DNA of 55,468 nucleotides from Myxococcota bacterium (lineage in GTDB: Bacteria; Myxococcota_A; UBA9160; SMWR01): NCBI GenBank assembly GCA_039030075.1, contig JBCCEW010000033.1, positions 1 through 55,468 on the forward strand. Direction: 5' to 3'. Positions 48,470 to 55,194 of the stretch are shown one piece after another. The notes beneath the pieces are model-generated. The model saw only the letters and a program-made list of their open reading frames with translations, made no database searches and was not told the DNA's origin. Made by a program: the position numbers and the translations under genes. Within the stretch, counting starts at the first letter, position 1. The number at the start of each line of letters is the position of its first letter.

Positions 48470-49579
48470 ATGAGCGCCCGCCTCCCCCGACGCTTGCTGC
48501 TCGGCCCCGGCCCCTCGAACGTGCACCCGCGGGTCCTCGAAGCGATGTCGCAGCCGCTGGTCGGCCACCTCGACCCCGCCTTCCTCGGGCTGCTCGATCA
48601 GGTGCAGGCCGATCTGCGCCTGCTCTTCGGCACCGAGAACCCGTTCACGCTCCCGCTTTCCGCGACCGGAAGCGCGGGGATGGAAGCCTGTCTCGTGAAT
48701 CTGCTCGAACGCGGAGATCGGCTGCTCGTGGGCGTCTCTGGCGTCTTCGGCGAGCGCATGTGCGAGGTCGCCCGACGCGCAGGAGCCGAGGTCTCACGCG
48801 TCGACGCCGAGCCCGGCACGCCCCTGGATCCAGACGCCATGGCCGAGGCCCTGCGGCGCGTCCGGCCGAAGGTCGTCGCCTTCGTCCACGCGGAGACCTC
48901 CACCGGGGTGTGCCAGCCGGTGGAACCGATCGCCGACGCCGCCCGCGAAGTGGGGGCGCTCGTCGTGCTCGACTGCGTGACGTCGCTGGCCGGGCTGCCG
49001 GTCGAGCTCGACCGCTGGGGCGTCGCCGCCGCGTACTCCGGCACCCAGAAGTGTCTCTCCTGCCCGCCTGGGCTGTCTCCCGTGAGCTTCAGCGACGCGG
49101 CCCTCGAGGTGGTTCGCGAGCGGCAGCAACCGGTCCAGAGCTGGTTCCTCGACACGGGTCTTTTGGCCGGGTACTTCGGGGGCGAGCGCGTCTACCACCA
49201 CACCGCGCCCGTGACCGCGGTGATGGGCCTCGCCGAGGGCCTGCGCCTCGTACTCGAGGAGGGGCTCGATGCGCGCACGGCGCGACACCGAACGGCGGCG
49301 GAGCAGCTGATCGACGGTGTCGGCGAGCTCGGCTTCGAGCCCCTCGTCGACGAGGACTACCGACTGCCGATGCTCACCACCCTGCGCCTGCCCGCGGCCG
49401 TGCGAAAGGCGGGTGAGGCCGAGCTCCGCCGCAGCCTCCTCGACCGCTACGGCATCGAGGTCGGCGGTGGGCTCGGGAAGCTCGCCGGGCAGATCTGGCG
49501 AGTCGGCCTGATGGGCGAAAACGCCCGTGTGATCAACGTCGAAGCCCTGCTCTTCGCGCTTCGGCGCGAGCTCGGCTAG
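48470..49579 (+). CDS. Alanine/serine--glyoxylate aminotransferase (class V)
   Basis: 369 aa, ATG at 48470. Class V PLP enzyme: Asp168 (ALVVLDCVTS) and the Schiff-base lysine Lys194 (AYSGTQKCLSCPPGLSPVSFS). The opening LLLGPGPSNVHPRVLEAMSQPLVGHLDPAF and HAETSTGVCQP are characteristic of alanine-glyoxylate and serine-pyruvate aminotransferases. The enzyme transfers an amino group to glyoxylate in photorespiration-like or C2 metabolism. It stands alone between the dNTPase cluster and the cobalamin riboswitch. Confidence 0.9.
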   Translation: MSARLPRRLLLGPGPSNVHPRVLEAMSQPLVGHLDPAFLGLLDQVQADLRLLFGTENPFTLPLSATGSAGMEACLVNLLERGDRLLVGVSGVFGERMCEVARRAGAEVSRVDAEPGTPLDPDAMAEALRRVRPKVVAFVHAETSTGVCQPVEPIADAAREVGALVVLDCVTSLAGLPVELDRWGVAAAYSGTQKCLSCPPGLSPVSFSDAALEVVRERQQPVQSWFLDTGLLAGYFGGERVYHHTAPVTAVMGLAEGLRLVLEEGLDARTARHRTAAEQLIDGVGELGFEPLVDEDYRLPMLTTLRLPAAVRKAGEAELRRSLLDRYGIEVGGGLGKLAGQIWRVGLMGENARVINVEALLFALRRELG

Positions 49580-49744: not shown

Positions 49745-49903
49745 GTATACGGGCCATGGCAGAGGGCGCTGCGGGAAGCCGGTGAGAATCCGGCGCGAGC
49801 CCGTCGCTGTGACCGGGGACGAACGTCGCACGATGCCACTGGCCATTCCGGCCGGGAAGGCGCGGCGCTCGGCTGATCCGGGAGCCAGAAGACCGGCCCT
49901 CTC
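49745..49903 (+). ncRNA. Cobalamin (B12) riboswitch
   Basis: Core consensus blocks occur in order: GGGAAGCCGGTGAGAATCC (49773-49791), then GCGAGCCCGTCGCTGTGA, then GCCACTGG, then GGGAAGGCG, and the B12 box GAGCCAGAAGACCGGCC near the 3' end. The closing helix is GGGCC (49751-49755) with GGCCC (49895-49899). The class is set by the B12 box and the GGTGxxAATCC block. It precedes a surface protein/TonB-receptor operon, so adenosylcobalamin or another cobalamin should repress expression. Confidence 0.92.
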
Positions 49904-49985
49904 CGCTGGCCTGCTCTTCTTCGGGGCACGAGAAGACTCGCCGCGCGTGGCAACAGCCGCGCGCGCCGTTCTCTCGCCCACGTTC

Positions 49986-50040
49986 CGGATGGAGCGGGCC
50001 TCCCGAACCGGCGCTCGACTGCAGCGCCACGGAGGATCCG
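49986..50040 (+). promoter_or_regulatory. SD-sequestering expression platform
   Basis: CCTCC (49999-50003) can pair with the Shine-Dalgarno GGAGG (50031-50035), extended by CGGAT (49986-49990) with ATCCG (50036-50040), which abuts the ATG. An inner hairpin GGCGCT/AGCGCC (50010-50015/50023-50028) closes the loop. No T tract is seen, so translational control by the B12 riboswitch is more likely than termination. Confidence 0.65.
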
Positions 50041-50847
50041 ATGCTGTCCAAGTACCTGGGAACCGTTGTCACGTTCGTTGCCCTGTTGCCCCTCACCGCG
50101 AGCGCTGTAGGCGTCATCGACTTCGAGGACGTCGGCGGCGGCTTGGCCCCTCAGAGCTTCTACAACGGCTCGGATGGCGCGGGCGGCTTCAGCAGTGGTG
50201 GAGCGGACTTCACCAACTCCTTCACCGATTTCGGGGGCGGTTTCGTCGGCTGGGACGGCTTTGCCTACTCGAACGTGGTGGATACGACCACGCCAGGCCT
50301 TGCGAACCAGTACGCCGCCTTCCCCGGCTCCGGGGTCGGGTCCAGCGCGAGCTACGGCGTCGCGTTCCCGAGTGGCTCGGGCTTGCCCGGCGTGTCGACG
50401 ATTACCCTCTCGAGTCCGCAGCCGGTCTCGGGCGGCTATTTCACCAACACCACCTACGCCGCCCTCTCGATGATGACCGGAGACACGTTCGCGAAGCAGT
50501 TCGGGGGACCGAGCGGGAACGATCCGGACTTCTTCCTGCTCGAGATCCTGGGCTACGACGCCGCGGACCAGCAGACGGGCAGCGTGCCGTTCTACCTGGC
50601 CGACTATCGGTTCGCGGACAATGCGCTCGACTACATCGTCGACGAGTGGGTCTGGGTGGACCTGGCGGGCCTCGGCAACGTCTCGCGCCTCGAGTTCGTG
50701 GTGAGCGGCAGCGACGTCGGGGGCTTCGGGCTGAACACCCCTGCGTACTTCGCCCTCGATGACCTCACGTTCGTGCCCGAGCCCAGCACCGCCGCCCTGC
50801 TCGGTCTCGGCCTGGCGTTGCTCGCGGCGCGCCGGCGCTCCTCGTGA
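50041..50847 (+). CDS. DUF4465 protein with PEP-CTERM tail (BtuH-like cobalamin-binding candidate)
   Basis: 268 aa, ATG at 50041 with GGAGG. A signal peptide (MLSKYLGTVVTFVALLPLTASA) precedes a full DUF4465 domain (about 25-240): SFYNGSDGAGGFSSGGADFTN, GWDGFAYSNVVDTTTPGLANQY, FTNTTYAALSMMTGDTFAKQFGG, and NALDYIVDEWVWVDLAGLG through NTPAYFALDDLTF. As I recall, the Bacteroides surface B12-binding protein BtuH belongs to this family. The C-terminus VPEPSTAALLGLGLALLAARRRSS (245-268) is a canonical PEP-CTERM signal, implying exosortase processing instead of lipidation. First gene after the B12 riboswitch. B12 binding is inferred. Confidence 0.88.
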   Translation: MLSKYLGTVVTFVALLPLTASAVGVIDFEDVGGGLAPQSFYNGSDGAGGFSSGGADFTNSFTDFGGGFVGWDGFAYSNVVDTTTPGLANQYAAFPGSGVGSSASYGVAFPSGSGLPGVSTITLSSPQPVSGGYFTNTTYAALSMMTGDTFAKQFGGPSGNDPDFFLLEILGYDAADQQTGSVPFYLADYRFADNALDYIVDEWVWVDLAGLGNVSRLEFVVSGSDVGGFGLNTPAYFALDDLTFVPEPSTAALLGLGLALLAARRRSS

Positions 50848-51650
50848 CCGGGGCAAGGTTCCTGGCGGCGAGCCTCGCGCTCGCCGCCGCGGGCGGTCCG
50901 TCATCCCCGGCGCACGCCGGCTTCGACGATCCCGGGCTCCTGCCCTCGGAGATGGTCGCGTGGGCGACGGGTGTCGACGAGACCGTGCGCGGTCCCCAGG
51001 ACATCGCCAACCCCACCGGCCCACTCGCCAGTCTGGGCATGCCCGTGATGGCGCTCGGGCCGGCGGCCTTCGACAACATGGATGTCGTCTCCCTGGGAGA
51101 CGGTGGCCACATCACCGTCACCTTCGATGAGCCCATCGTCGACCTCGAGGGCGACGACTTCGCGGTGTTCGAGAACGGCTTCTTCTCGGGGCCGGGGCTC
51201 TTCGCGGAGTTCGCTTTCATCGAGGTCTCGAGCGACGGCGTCTCCTTCGCGCGTTTCCCCTCGGAGACGCTGAACATGACGCCGGTGCCGTCCTTCGCAG
51301 TCATCGATCCCTTCGACTACGACTTCGCAGGCGACCAGCCGCTGGGTCTCGGCACGGGCTTCGACCTGGCCGACCTGGCGGGAGATCCGCTGGTCGTCGC
51401 CGGGACGGTGGACCTCTTCGACGTGGCCTTCGTGCGGGTGGTCGATGTCGTCGGCAACGGATCGACCGTCGACGCGTTCGGGGCCCCGGTCTACGACCCT
51501 TACCCGACGGCGTTCCCGTCGGGCGGGTTCGACCTGGACGCGGTGGGCGTCGTCCACCCGCTGCCCGAGCCCGGCGCCGCAACGGGGCTCGCTGCGAGCG
51601 GGCTGGTCCTGCTCGTGCTGCATGGGCGGCGTCGCATCCGCGGGTGCTAG
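50844..51650 (+). CDS. PEP-CTERM surface protein, candidate B12-uptake component
   Basis: 268 aa from GTG at 50844, overlapping the previous stop (GTGA). Signal peptide (FLAASLALAAAGGPSSPAHA), then a beta-rich body: VVSLGDGGHITVTFDEPIVDLEGDDFAVFENGF, FAFIEVSSDGVSFARFPSETLN and FDVAFVRVVDVVGNG. Proteins of this type are usually annotated only as cell-surface protein. The C-terminus LPEPGAATGLAASGLVLLVLHGRRR is a PEP-CTERM-like tail. Its position inside a riboswitch-controlled B12 operon suggests ligand capture or a scaffold for the receptor. No characterised homologue is known to me. Confidence 0.8.
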   Translation: MTGARFLAASLALAAAGGPSSPAHAGFDDPGLLPSEMVAWATGVDETVRGPQDIANPTGPLASLGMPVMALGPAAFDNMDVVSLGDGGHITVTFDEPIVDLEGDDFAVFENGFFSGPGLFAEFAFIEVSSDGVSFARFPSETLNMTPVPSFAVIDPFDYDFAGDQPLGLGTGFDLADLAGDPLVVAGTVDLFDVAFVRVVDVVGNGSTVDAFGAPVYDPYPTAFPSGGFDLDAVGVVHPLPEPGAATGLAASGLVLLVLHGRRRIRGC

Positions 51651-53650
51651 CGCGCGTCCGGCGCCGGCTCCGGGACGGGCCTCTCGTCGTCCTCCTCCTC
51701 GGGCTGCCTCTCGCAGGCACGGCCCAGGCGCCCGAGGAGGAGCTCCGCGACGAAGAGCCCGTCGGTGAGATCGTGGTACGGGGCGTGCGGCCCGGCGCGC
51801 TCCCCCGCGTTCCCACGGCGTCGAGCGACATCGTGGAGACCGACGACTTCGAGGCCGAGAACAAGACCCTCGCCGAGCTGCTCGACGGGCTGAGTGGCGT
51901 TCGGGTACGGCGCTTCGGCGGACGCGGCGAGGCGGCCGAGCTCTCGATCCGGGGATCGACCGCGAACCAGGTGGTCCTCACCCTGGACGGCGTGCCCGTC
52001 AACAACGCCCTCACGGGCCTCGCCGACCCGAACGACTATTGCCTGCCGCAGGTGGAGAGGGTCGCGGTGACACGAGGCGCGGGATCCTCTCAGGTCGGGA
52101 GTGGCGCGATCGGCGGCGTGATCGATCTCACCACCCGGTCGACGAGCGATGCGCCCACGACGGCGGTCACCTTCTCGGGAGGCGCCTTCGACACCTACGA
52201 GGGTTCGATCCGCCACGCGCGACCCCTCGGCGAGCTGGGGCTCCAGCTCGGCTACTGCGGCCTCACGACCGAGGGCGACTTCGAGTTCGCGCGGCCGACC
52301 CAGGTGGTGGCCGGTATCCCCATCGAATTCGAACCCGACGTCGCGACCCGGCTGAACAACGACCGGGTCCGCCACGGCGGGAACCTGGCACTCTCACATC
52401 CGCTCGGCATCGGCGAGCTTCGCCTGCGCAGCCTGTTCTCCTACGTCGACGGGGGGGCACCCGGCATCGACTCGGGGAATGGCCCCACCGCAGGGCAGGC
52501 GCTGGAAGCGCGCCGGCGCAACTGGTCCGCGCTGACCATCGCCGATTGGGAGGGCGTCGGCTTCCTGGAGGACACGCCGCTCCTCCGCGCGCATCACCGC
52601 TTCGAGGAACTGCGCTTCGAGAACCCCATGCCGGCACTCGGTGCCCCCATCGACACCCGCGCGCGCGTGCAGACCTACGGCGTCCAGGCGAGGGACGAGT
52701 GGGAGCCCCGGGTGCTCGGCAACGCACAGCACTTCCGCATCTTCGCCGACGGGACCCGGGACGAGCTGCGCGACGCCGACCAACGCAACCGACAACGCAA
52801 CCGCGGCGGCGTCGGCACAGAGTCGACGCTGCGGGCGCTGAAGGAGCGTGTCGTCCTGTCCGCGAGTGTCCGCCTCGATGGCGCCGACGGCTTCCGCAGG
52901 GCTTGGCTCCCGAGCGGAGGCCTCGCTGTGACGCCCGTGCCTTGGCTCCGCCTGCGCGGAAACGTGTCTCGTGCGTACCGCGTGCCGAACTTCAACGAGC
53001 TCTTCCTGCCGGATCAGGGGTTCATCCGAGGCAACCCGAACCTCGAGCCCGAGGACGCGATCAACGCCGACGTCGGCGCGGAGTTCCTGCTCGAAGCGCT
53101 CGGTCCGCTGCGCCGGGTGCGTCTCCGTGCGGCGCTCTTCCGGCGCGAGATCGAGGAGTCGATCGTGTGGGTGCTGGTGAGTCCGTTCACCGTGGCGCCC
53201 ATCAACACGGGCGATGCCACGGTCGAGGGAATCGAACTCTCCGGTTCGGTCTCCCTGTCACGTTTTCTCACGGTCTCAGCCCAGCACACGCACATCGATT
53301 CGGAGCGGGACGAGACCGGCAAGGAGCTCCCCGGACAACCCGAGTTCGAGACCTTCGGCCGGGTCGAGGTCGGCTTCCCGGACGTGGTGAAGCTCGTGGG
53401 CGAAGTGCAGGACACGGGCGAAATCCTCGTGAACGAGGGCGGCGGACGTCGCCTGCCCGCGCGCACGGTCTGGAACGCCAGTGTCTCGCTGAACCTCGCC
53501 GCCTGGTCTCCCCTGCAACGCTTCACGCGCGCACGCAGCCTGTGGGTCTTCTTCGAGATCGACAACATCGGCGACGTCGCCGTGCGCGACAGCCTCTCGT
53601 TTCCCCAGCCCGGACGGAACGCGAGCGCCGGCTTCGAGGCCCGCTGGTGA
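51644..53650 (+). CDS. btuB: TonB-dependent outer-membrane receptor, BtuB-like
   Basis: 668 aa from GTG at 51644, overlapping the previous gene by 7 nt. Signal peptide (GPLVVLLLGLPLAGTAQA), a TonB-box-like GEIVVRG, and a plug domain: LAELLDGLSGVRVRRFGGRGEAAELSIRGSTANQVVLTLDGVPVN through VAVTRGAGSSQVGSGAIGGVIDLTTR. A ~500-residue beta-barrel follows, including SRAYRVPNFNELFLPDQGFIRGNPNLEPE, and the protein ends in an aromatic residue (FEARW). The length and the upstream B12 riboswitch support cobalamin as ligand. The inner-membrane BtuCD/BtuF genes are not in the window. Confidence 0.88.
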   Translation: MLARVRRRLRDGPLVVLLLGLPLAGTAQAPEEELRDEEPVGEIVVRGVRPGALPRVPTASSDIVETDDFEAENKTLAELLDGLSGVRVRRFGGRGEAAELSIRGSTANQVVLTLDGVPVNNALTGLADPNDYCLPQVERVAVTRGAGSSQVGSGAIGGVIDLTTRSTSDAPTTAVTFSGGAFDTYEGSIRHARPLGELGLQLGYCGLTTEGDFEFARPTQVVAGIPIEFEPDVATRLNNDRVRHGGNLALSHPLGIGELRLRSLFSYVDGGAPGIDSGNGPTAGQALEARRRNWSALTIADWEGVGFLEDTPLLRAHHRFEELRFENPMPALGAPIDTRARVQTYGVQARDEWEPRVLGNAQHFRIFADGTRDELRDADQRNRQRNRGGVGTESTLRALKERVVLSASVRLDGADGFRRAWLPSGGLAVTPVPWLRLRGNVSRAYRVPNFNELFLPDQGFIRGNPNLEPEDAINADVGAEFLLEALGPLRRVRLRAALFRREIEESIVWVLVSPFTVAPINTGDATVEGIELSGSVSLSRFLTVSAQHTHIDSERDETGKELPGQPEFETFGRVEVGFPDVVKLVGEVQDTGEILVNEGGGRRLPARTVWNASVSLNLAAWSPLQRFTRARSLWVFFEIDNIGDVAVRDSLSFPQPGRNASAGFEARW

Positions 53651-55194
53651 GGTGGGCCCTCCTCCAGCGCGCGCGGCCCGGCGCCGCCCTCGCCCTCGCT
53701 GCGCTCGTCGCACTCGGTTGTGAGGGATCCGGCAGCAGCGGCGGCGGACTCGAGGTCTCGAACGAGCCGATCGCGCCGAACTGCACCCCCTTTGCCTCCC
53801 AGTTCCCTTCCGGCATGGTGCTGCTCGCGTCGGGTCGCGCGATCGCCTCTCAAGATCGGCCGGAGGCACTGCTCTCCTTCGACCTCGAGGGCAATGCCCC
53901 GGCGCTCCGCGCTGTCGACACGATTGGACCCGACAGCGACCTCGACGGGGTGGACGACCGCCTTGGGAACCCGATCGGGCTGCCCATCGCCCCGCGCCTG
54001 GGAGAGCTCAATCTCGCGCCCGACGGCACCGCCCTGCTGTCGACCAGCAACTATGAGCAGGTGCTGCTGCGCTGGACGTCTCCACTCGGTCCGCGCCTGA
54101 TCGAGATTGCGACGCCTCTGGGCCTCGACGTGTTCTACCCCGGACTCCCGGCGCCAGGCGGCTCCTCCATGCGCGCCGGGGTCTCGACCCTCGCCTGCGT
54201 GTCGCCGCCGGACCCCTTCGACTCCGGCGGCCAGGCGATCGGTGCCAGCTGCAATCCCAGCGCGCCGAGTTTCCTCACGAGCTTCACCGCGGGAGCGGCG
54301 GTCGTCGGCGGGCACCTGTTCGTCGCCACCTCGAACCTGGACGTCTTCGTGGACCGCTTCCGCCCCGGGACCGTGCTCGTCTACGACTGGGACGACACCG
54401 GTCCGCTGCTGCGCGTCGCGCCCGACGCGGCAACGCCCGTGCTCTTCACTACCGCGTTCAACCCCACGAGCGTCGCCCCCTTCACCACGCCCGGCGGACG
54501 CAACCTCGCGCTGGTGACCGCCACGGGGTCGATCGGCGCCGGCGTGGGAACCTCCAACGTGCGCACGGAAGGAGCCGTCGACGTGATCGACGCCGACACA
54601 CTGCGCATCGTGGCCACCATTCCGCTCGGATTCGCCGGGCCCTCCTACGATCCGGTGGCGATCGACCCGAGTGGCTCGGTCGCGCTCCTCGGGGCGACCT
54701 CGACCCGCCATCTCTTCGCCATCGATCTGCGCCCACTCGACGATCCAAACCTGTATCTCGGCGGGCCACCGGTCGTGCTCGATGGGCTGAGCGTCGGCTT
54801 CCCCGACGCGCGCATCTTCGACGCCGACCGACCCCTCGTGCTGCCGGACCGCCCCGATGGTGCGCCGGCCGTGGAATGCGACGGCTTCACCTTCACCGCC
54901 TGGAACGACGCGGGCGACGCGGCCTTCGCGACGGACTGGTGCGACGGCACGATCAGCACCCTGCGCGTCACGATCGCGCCGAGCGATCCCGTGCCCTTCC
55001 CGCGCGACCGGTTCGAAGTGACCGGACGGCTCGACTCCTTCGCGACGAGGCTGTCGCTGGGGCTGCTCCGGGCGCCGTCGCGTCCGCGCGTACGTCCCGG
55101 CATGCCGGGCATCGACTACCGCGGACCCGACGTCTTCGTGCTGATCGGCGACCCAGACGCGCAGATCTGTGCGCTGCGGATCGAGTCGCCGTAG
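53647..55194 (+). CDS. Beta-propeller-like lipoprotein (BtuG-like candidate)
   Basis: 515 aa from GTG at 53647 (GTGA overlap with the receptor stop). Lipoprotein signal with LVALGC (Cys25). The mature protein has blade-like repeats: LLSFDLEGNAPALRAVDTIG, GELNLAPDGTALLSTSNYEQVLLRW, GHLFVATSNLD, and VDVIDADTLRIVATIPLGFAGPSYDPVAIDPSGSVALLGATSTRHLFAIDL, the last being YncE-like. In Bacteroides the surface lipoprotein BtuG is a beta-propeller that binds B12 very tightly and caps BtuB. The same gene order (receptor next to propeller lipoprotein) under a B12 riboswitch supports an analogous role here. Sequence similarity to BtuG itself was not tested. Confidence 0.8.
   Translation: MRWALLQRARPGAALALAALVALGCEGSGSSGGGLEVSNEPIAPNCTPFASQFPSGMVLLASGRAIASQDRPEALLSFDLEGNAPALRAVDTIGPDSDLDGVDDRLGNPIGLPIAPRLGELNLAPDGTALLSTSNYEQVLLRWTSPLGPRLIEIATPLGLDVFYPGLPAPGGSSMRAGVSTLACVSPPDPFDSGGQAIGASCNPSAPSFLTSFTAGAAVVGGHLFVATSNLDVFVDRFRPGTVLVYDWDDTGPLLRVAPDAATPVLFTTAFNPTSVAPFTTPGGRNLALVTATGSIGAGVGTSNVRTEGAVDVIDADTLRIVATIPLGFAGPSYDPVAIDPSGSVALLGATSTRHLFAIDLRPLDDPNLYLGGPPVVLDGLSVGFPDARIFDADRPLVLPDRPDGAPAVECDGFTFTAWNDAGDAAFATDWCDGTISTLRVTIAPSDPVPFPRDRFEVTGRLDSFATRLSLGLLRAPSRPRVRPGMPGIDYRGPDVFVLIGDPDAQICALRIESP

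Follow-up and report, generated by a model that had tools for sequence, protein, structure and literature searches.

A cobalamin-riboswitch operon in a Myxococcota bacterium that probably serves outer-surface scavenging of vitamin B12 with exosortase-type sorting

The end of contig JBCCEW010000033.1 from a Myxococcota bacterium (assembly GCA_039030075.1; the whole 55,468-nt stretch analysed is called the window) raises the question of whether this organism captures vitamin B12 at its surface with a set of proteins like that of Bacteroides, and how such proteins would be held there. On the + strand a cobalamin riboswitch is followed by four genes, at 50041-50847, 50844-51650, 51644-53650 and 53647-55194 (genes 1 to 4), and we propose, with a probability of about 0.85, that together they form a riboswitch-controlled operon for scavenging B12 at the outer surface by the steps set out below. 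A covariance-model search (cmscan) placed a full-length RF00174 aptamer at 49747-49915 (+), matching model positions 1-189 with 101.1 bits against a gathering score of 31.5 (E 3.5e-24); it is the sole Rfam match in the window and the single cobalamin riboswitch of the 5.76 Mb assembly. The genes overlap by 4, 7 and 4 nt, which makes translational coupling of all four likely, and because the first gene-like frame past 55194 lies on the opposite strand, the operon seems to stop within the window. A preliminary description of this DNA, made from the sequence letters, had reported a well-formed B12 riboswitch with a four-gene unit behind it, and both are confirmed here. The locus is also beyond chance, as DUF4465, the domain of gene 1, occurs in 26 of 80 genomes of the order, and a riboswitch is present at 22 of the 28 DUF4465 loci that were fetched, several of the other six being cut by contig ends. 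In the synteny survey of related genomes the riboswitch and genes 1 to 4 recur across the order, with genes 2, 3 and 4 standing together beside DUF4465 in most loci that carry gene 2. At one locus (L045:5654-6387) two divergent cobalamin riboswitches are found, one preceding a lone gene-2 homologue and the other preceding DUF4465 and the rest of the operon. Within the leader from aptamer to start codon (49916-50040, +), a riboswitch ending in an intrinsic terminator was dropped as a candidate after the scan found no terminator on the + strand, and a promoter scan gave no hit. The minimum free energy fold allows an upstream CCUCC to pair with the GGAGG ribosome-binding site (z -1.5, a weak signal), which is consistent with riboswitch control acting at translation. 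Upstream of the riboswitch, outside its operon, lies a class V aminotransferase gene at 48470-49579 (+).

Which of the four proteins would bind B12? Gene 1 encodes a signal peptide, a DUF4465 domain that matches PF14717 with 180 bits against a gathering score of 25 (E 6.3e-53, Pfam), and a PEP-CTERM sorting signal at 50773-50838 (+; about 28-30.4 bits, above the cut-off), as the preliminary description had recognised. The DUF4465 proteins of Bacteroides are named BtuJ (PMC12751083), and B12 binding has been shown for eight divergent DUF4465 proteins across phyla (PMC13398666, 2026). Sequence matches in the PDB are 4jqr (E 1e-23), 9hmu (E 2e-22), 9qpm and 9fct (BtuJ1; E 5e-20), and the HI-loop motif (G/N)TPAYF, which carries the B12-binding tyrosine of these proteins (PMC13398666), is kept as NTPAYF at residues 232-237 (50734-50751, +). 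Gene 1 thus resembles the DUF4465/IPR027828 members D5EK51 (9HMU), BtuJ1 (9FCT) and BtuJ2 (9I2L) in domain, PDB similarity and motif, and by its sequence it belongs to the BtuJ family, with B12 as the probable ligand. The equation of gene 1 with BtuH in the preliminary description had to be given up, as DUF4465 is BtuJ and HHalign between BtuH and DUF4465 gave 0.7%. In 9hmu, the crystallised D5EK51 chain stops at ...VPE, as if the construct had dropped a PEP-CTERM tail.

The BtuH-like component sits instead at gene 2, where both profile and fold point to it. Gene 2 encodes a secreted protein, and no Pfam family covers its domain or its relatives. BtuH domains, which are about 270 residues long and bind B12 (PMC8941943), were gathered from Bacteroidales (25 domains) because 13 genomes holding the gene-2 family yielded no BtuH relatives, and the gene-2 profile aligned with this set at an HHalign value of 94% (P 9e-8), compared with 4.9%, 0.7% and 0.2% for controls with DUF4465 and gene 4. 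Profiles built first from 16 and then from 81 relatives reach a single PDB chain, 8blw_B, at residues 373-476 (E 0.0028 and 6.4e-4, respectively); this chain is BtuG1, the C-terminal part of which is a BtuH domain (PMC10404256). An AlphaFold model of gene 2 (predicted local distance difference test, pLDDT, 88) finds the same chain by Foldseek, alone in the PDB under E 1e-3 (E 6e-5, prob 1.00). The alignment with BtuH spans about 97 columns of the N-terminal half at about 28% identity, with the pattern SLG-GG...I.N..G..DF...N.F, and includes an ENGF motif whose N111 and F113 are invariant in 16 close relatives and which aligns with GNAF of BtuH. The residues of BtuH2 that touch B12 are Asn399, Phe401 and Gln333, and the correspondence to its numbering is approximate. 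The C-terminal half gave no significant HMMER match to BtuH, so that the likeness to BtuH2 (7BIZ) and to the BtuG1 C-terminal domain (8BLW) is confined to the N-terminal half. Gene 2 is accordingly a remote homologue of BtuH as judged from sequence profiles, strongly so for its N-terminal half, and its B12-binding site is putative. The weak matches of the NCBIfam LIC_13355 lipoprotein family to gene 2 and to the relatives L105 and L127 (E 0.035 to 1.6e-4) may mark a further relative.

The same fold comparison also allows for another role. After 8blw_B, the Foldseek matches of gene 2 include many CBM32/F5-8C-type domains (E 5e-3 to 6e-2), and the glutamine equivalent to BtuH2 Gln333, a ribose contact, appears from the alignment not to be kept in most members, as would suit a family of co-regulated structural or assembly partners of DUF4465, such as a scaffold with a CBM32-like jelly roll, rather than of B12 binders. 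We consider this unlikely, given that 8blw_B alone passes E 1e-3, that the HHalign controls stay below 5%, that one member has an adjoining DUF4430 match, and that the family is frequently linked to riboswitches over many phyla even where DUF4465 is absent. A single genome scan gave 569 gene-2 relatives, and the 80 kept for analysis span Bacteroidota, Planctomycetes, Verrucomicrobia, Cyanobacteria, Desulfobacterales, beta- and gammaproteobacteria, Krumholzibacteriia and others. Cobalamin riboswitches are present in 77 of the 79 gene-2-bearing genomes tested, and at 66 of 79 loci one precedes the gene-2 domain in the same orientation by no more than 5 kb (median about 1.2 kb), a count that is approximate, contig identity being unproven for short contigs of riboswitch-rich genomes; in nine loci the positions were found again by cmscan. 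DUF4465 is encoded at 41 of the 80 loci, in 17 of them in one frame with the gene-2 domain. The C-terminal tails differ by group, with type IX secretion system (T9SS) tails in Bacteroidota, RTX repeats in cyanobacteria and PEP-CTERM or VPxPA-like tails in others. Proteins of further design occur as well: a Bacteroidales protein of 1036 residues (L129:5751-8861) carries the BtuH-like domain together with a T9SS tail and a DUF4430 match of borderline score, and in giant planctomycete proteins (L131:7902-13856 and L087:7830-12383) one gene-2 domain is followed in a single frame by three or two DUF4465 domains, respectively. In five proteobacterial and Desulfobacterota-type loci (L078, L085, L094, L114 and L120) the gene-2 reading frames end in GGCF(I/L/V)-like tails, perhaps another sorting signal; no NCBIfam model matches those of L078 and L085.

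How would captured B12 enter the cell? Gene 3 encodes a TonB-dependent receptor with plug (PF07715, E 1.6e-17) and barrel (PF00593, E 3.5e-33) domains in Pfam. Its top NCBIfam model is TIGR01779 (TonB-B12) and its top PDB relative is E. coli BtuB (E 2e-16), so that by sequence it is nearest to BtuB among the receptors compared. Gene 3 also matches heme/hemoglobin receptor models with 113 and 105 bits and itself scores under the BtuB cut-off, and the operon might be imagined to import another corrinoid, cobinamide or a non-B12 ligand such as heme under a B12 switch. This is very improbable in our estimation, as the B12 receptor model scores best, the top PDB relatives are BtuB entries and two neighbouring genes belong to B12-binding families. 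Sixteen loci of the order, the present one included, place gene 4 beside gene 3, and its product is predicted to be a beta-propeller lipoprotein that is BtuG-like by position and fold. Its AlphaFold model (pLDDT 79.5) is nearly all beta and forms a propeller; Foldseek gave 500 matches with E<1e-3, the best 50 being mostly propellers, and at rank 46 stands 8okv, the Bacteroides lipoprotein BT2095 with cyanocobalamin (E 5.8e-6). A lipobox-like stretch, LVALGC25, ends in a cysteine (Cys25; 53719-53721, +) that the alignment shows to be kept in nearly all relatives, for example as LTGC or LAGC. Nothing in gene 4 scored above a Pfam cut-off and no PDB sequence match was found. The preliminary description is upheld in calling gene 3 a TonB receptor and gene 4 a propeller-like lipoprotein.

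The wider genome fits an organism that needs the vitamin. MetH is present (1671 bits) and CbiC was not found in the assembly, which suggests that the host uses B12, lacks a de novo route to corrin and probably depends on external corrinoid. On another contig (C5), a BtuF-like periplasmic protein (NF038402 above its cut-off; NF002894 at 46 bits, below) is encoded beside a FecCD permease. Exosortase genes scoring 204 and 140 bits, above the cut-off, and about 68 PEP-CTERM proteins above the cut-off make the sorting signals of genes 1 and 2 credible. The C-terminus of gene 2 consists of LPEP, a hydrophobic stretch and an HGRRRIR tail (a degenerate PEP-CTERM-like signal at 51564-51635, +); PF07589 is matched in 5 of 16 gene-2 relatives, and several relatives have canonical tails. 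Two claims of the preliminary description, that exosortase-type tails take the place of lipid anchors on two components and that the host is deltaproteobacterium-like, are supported, the latter as a deltaproteobacterial or Myxococcota host; its naming of gene 2 as a second PEP-CTERM protein stands by the form of the tail and by the relatives and falls short on the protein's own score.

Based on these data, we propose that low intracellular B12 would allow the riboswitch to permit expression of genes 1 to 4, after which the products of genes 1 and 2 would be exported by Sec, have their PEP-CTERM tails processed by exosortase and stay on the cell surface or within the exopolysaccharide matrix, where they would trap B12 with high affinity. 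B12 would then be handed to the gene 4 lipoprotein, which, from gene order and fold, may act as a BtuG-like lid on the TonB channel of gene 3, and the BtuF-like protein, together with the FecCD permease, would bring it into the cytoplasm for use by MetH. Several points weigh against this interpretation. The 126.5 bits of gene 3 lie far under the TIGR01779 equivalog cut-off of 599.7 bits. The gene 4 fold resembles propellers in general and not BtuG specifically, and PF16819 (BtuG) has no match in gene 4 or in 16 members of its family; assignment of gene 4 to PF16819 by sequence was dropped, and we conclude that its predicted fold fits BtuG and that its sequence does not decide. Gene 2 superposes on the multi-domain chain 8blw_B with a query TM-score of only 0.40 and a root-mean-square deviation of 10.8, its profile did not reach BtuH2 (7biz), and its own sorting tail scores 11.4 bits, below the cut-off. 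The assembly is about 95% complete, and the absence of CbiC is thus not absolute. Scavenging of B12 by BtuB/BtuG/BtuH-type parts, as the preliminary description had it, is nevertheless supported as a function by riboswitch, synteny, profile and fold; its assignment of the BtuH part to gene 1 was not.

How much of this is new? The cobamide loci of B. thetaiotaomicron (BtuB1/BtuGH/BtuH1/BtuJ1; PMC10404256, PMC8941943, PMC12751083) are alike in combining, at each locus, a riboswitch, a TonB receptor, a propeller lipoprotein, a BtuH domain and DUF4465 for B12 scavenging. There, however, the accessory binders are all N-terminal lipoproteins, whereas genes 1 and 2 carry PEP-CTERM or PEP-CTERM-like tails; here the BtuH-like protein stands on a distant branch and has neither PKD nor propeller as its partner, PF16819 is missing from the propeller, and the genes for the inner-membrane transporter lie elsewhere. 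The proposal of a new architecture is weakened, since B12 binding by DUF4465 proteins beyond the gut is already published, as is their co-location with TonB receptors and propellers in a family whose range takes in Myxococcota (PMC13398666). That paper makes no mention of PEP-CTERM, exosortase or fusions, and the literature searched gave no description of the exosortase sorting, the BtuH-like family outside gut Bacteroidetes or the tandem precursors. For PEP-CTERM with a cobalamin riboswitch and TonB, the one paper returned is a study of a denitrifying reactor, which to judge from its abstract deals with another subject.

The tandem precursors raise a question of their own. Ten genomes of the order encode gene 2 and DUF4465 in one open frame, gene 2 coming first in nine of them and second in the other; Aquisphaera insulae and a verrucomicrobial metagenome-assembled genome do so as well. 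In the DUF4465 tree the gene-2-first type occurs in a single family of the order and calls for two to three changes, and the reversed type sits in another family. A frameshift or assembly error as their source is unlikely, because the arrangement recurs in nine genomes of a single family, in the opposite domain order in a genome of a second family, and again in the planctomycete and verrucomicrobial genomes. The segment between the domains runs from a PEP-like motif through a hydrophobic stretch and an arginine-rich loop to another hydrophobic stretch and an A-x-A site; Bacteroidota and some Planctomycetes have the two domains fused directly, with no membrane stretches between. The canonical PEP, hydrophobic and arginine tails and the exosortase genes in the same genome agree with known PEP-CTERM/exosortase sorting (PMC1569441), from which the tandems differ in carrying the signal inside the frame, ahead of another signal peptide and another substrate.

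We give somewhat less than even odds to a combined view. In it, gene 2 would represent a large BtuH-like family, as yet unnamed, whose members bind B12 at the surface, stand under cobalamin riboswitches in many phyla and differ in their anchor from phylum to phylum. In this Myxococcota-like order, and in one planctomycete and one verrucomicrobial genome, gene 2 would share with BtuJ a tandem precursor that exosortase and signal peptidase cut at the internal PEP-CTERM signal and signal peptide to yield two B12 traps. Several tandem loci hold possible in-frame start codons between the domains, and it is close to an even chance that the tandems are not cut by these enzymes at all, the product being either a two-domain protein on an uncleaved double-transmembrane hairpin or two proteins from internal starts. 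Against this stand L070 and L072, in which no ATG, GTG or TTG follows the internal PEP motif before the mature DUF4465 domain begins, so that one polypeptide is expected from each; the internal PEP-CTERM stretches that Pfam detects in L064, L113 and L141, and as a second stretch in L065, L066, L069 and L070; and the signal-peptidase-like sites AQA, AFA and ALA that remain in the tandems. If the precursor is indeed processed into two proteins, it would amount to an exosortase-system polyprotein. Our literature search found no paper joining PEP-CTERM with a polyprotein, and one-frame precursors with an internal PEP-CTERM signal and a second signal peptide are apparently undescribed.

In summary, our findings would extend the Bacteroides-type surface kit for B12 capture to an uncultured Myxococcota-like order and suggest that the binders were kept while the anchoring system was swapped. 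An uncharacterised family present in hundreds of genomes gains a testable function, and the exosortase system gains substrates whose ligand, the pink B12, can be predicted and is easy to measure. Natural genes with internal PEP-CTERM signals may, in addition, provide a means to test how exosortases read the position of their signal.

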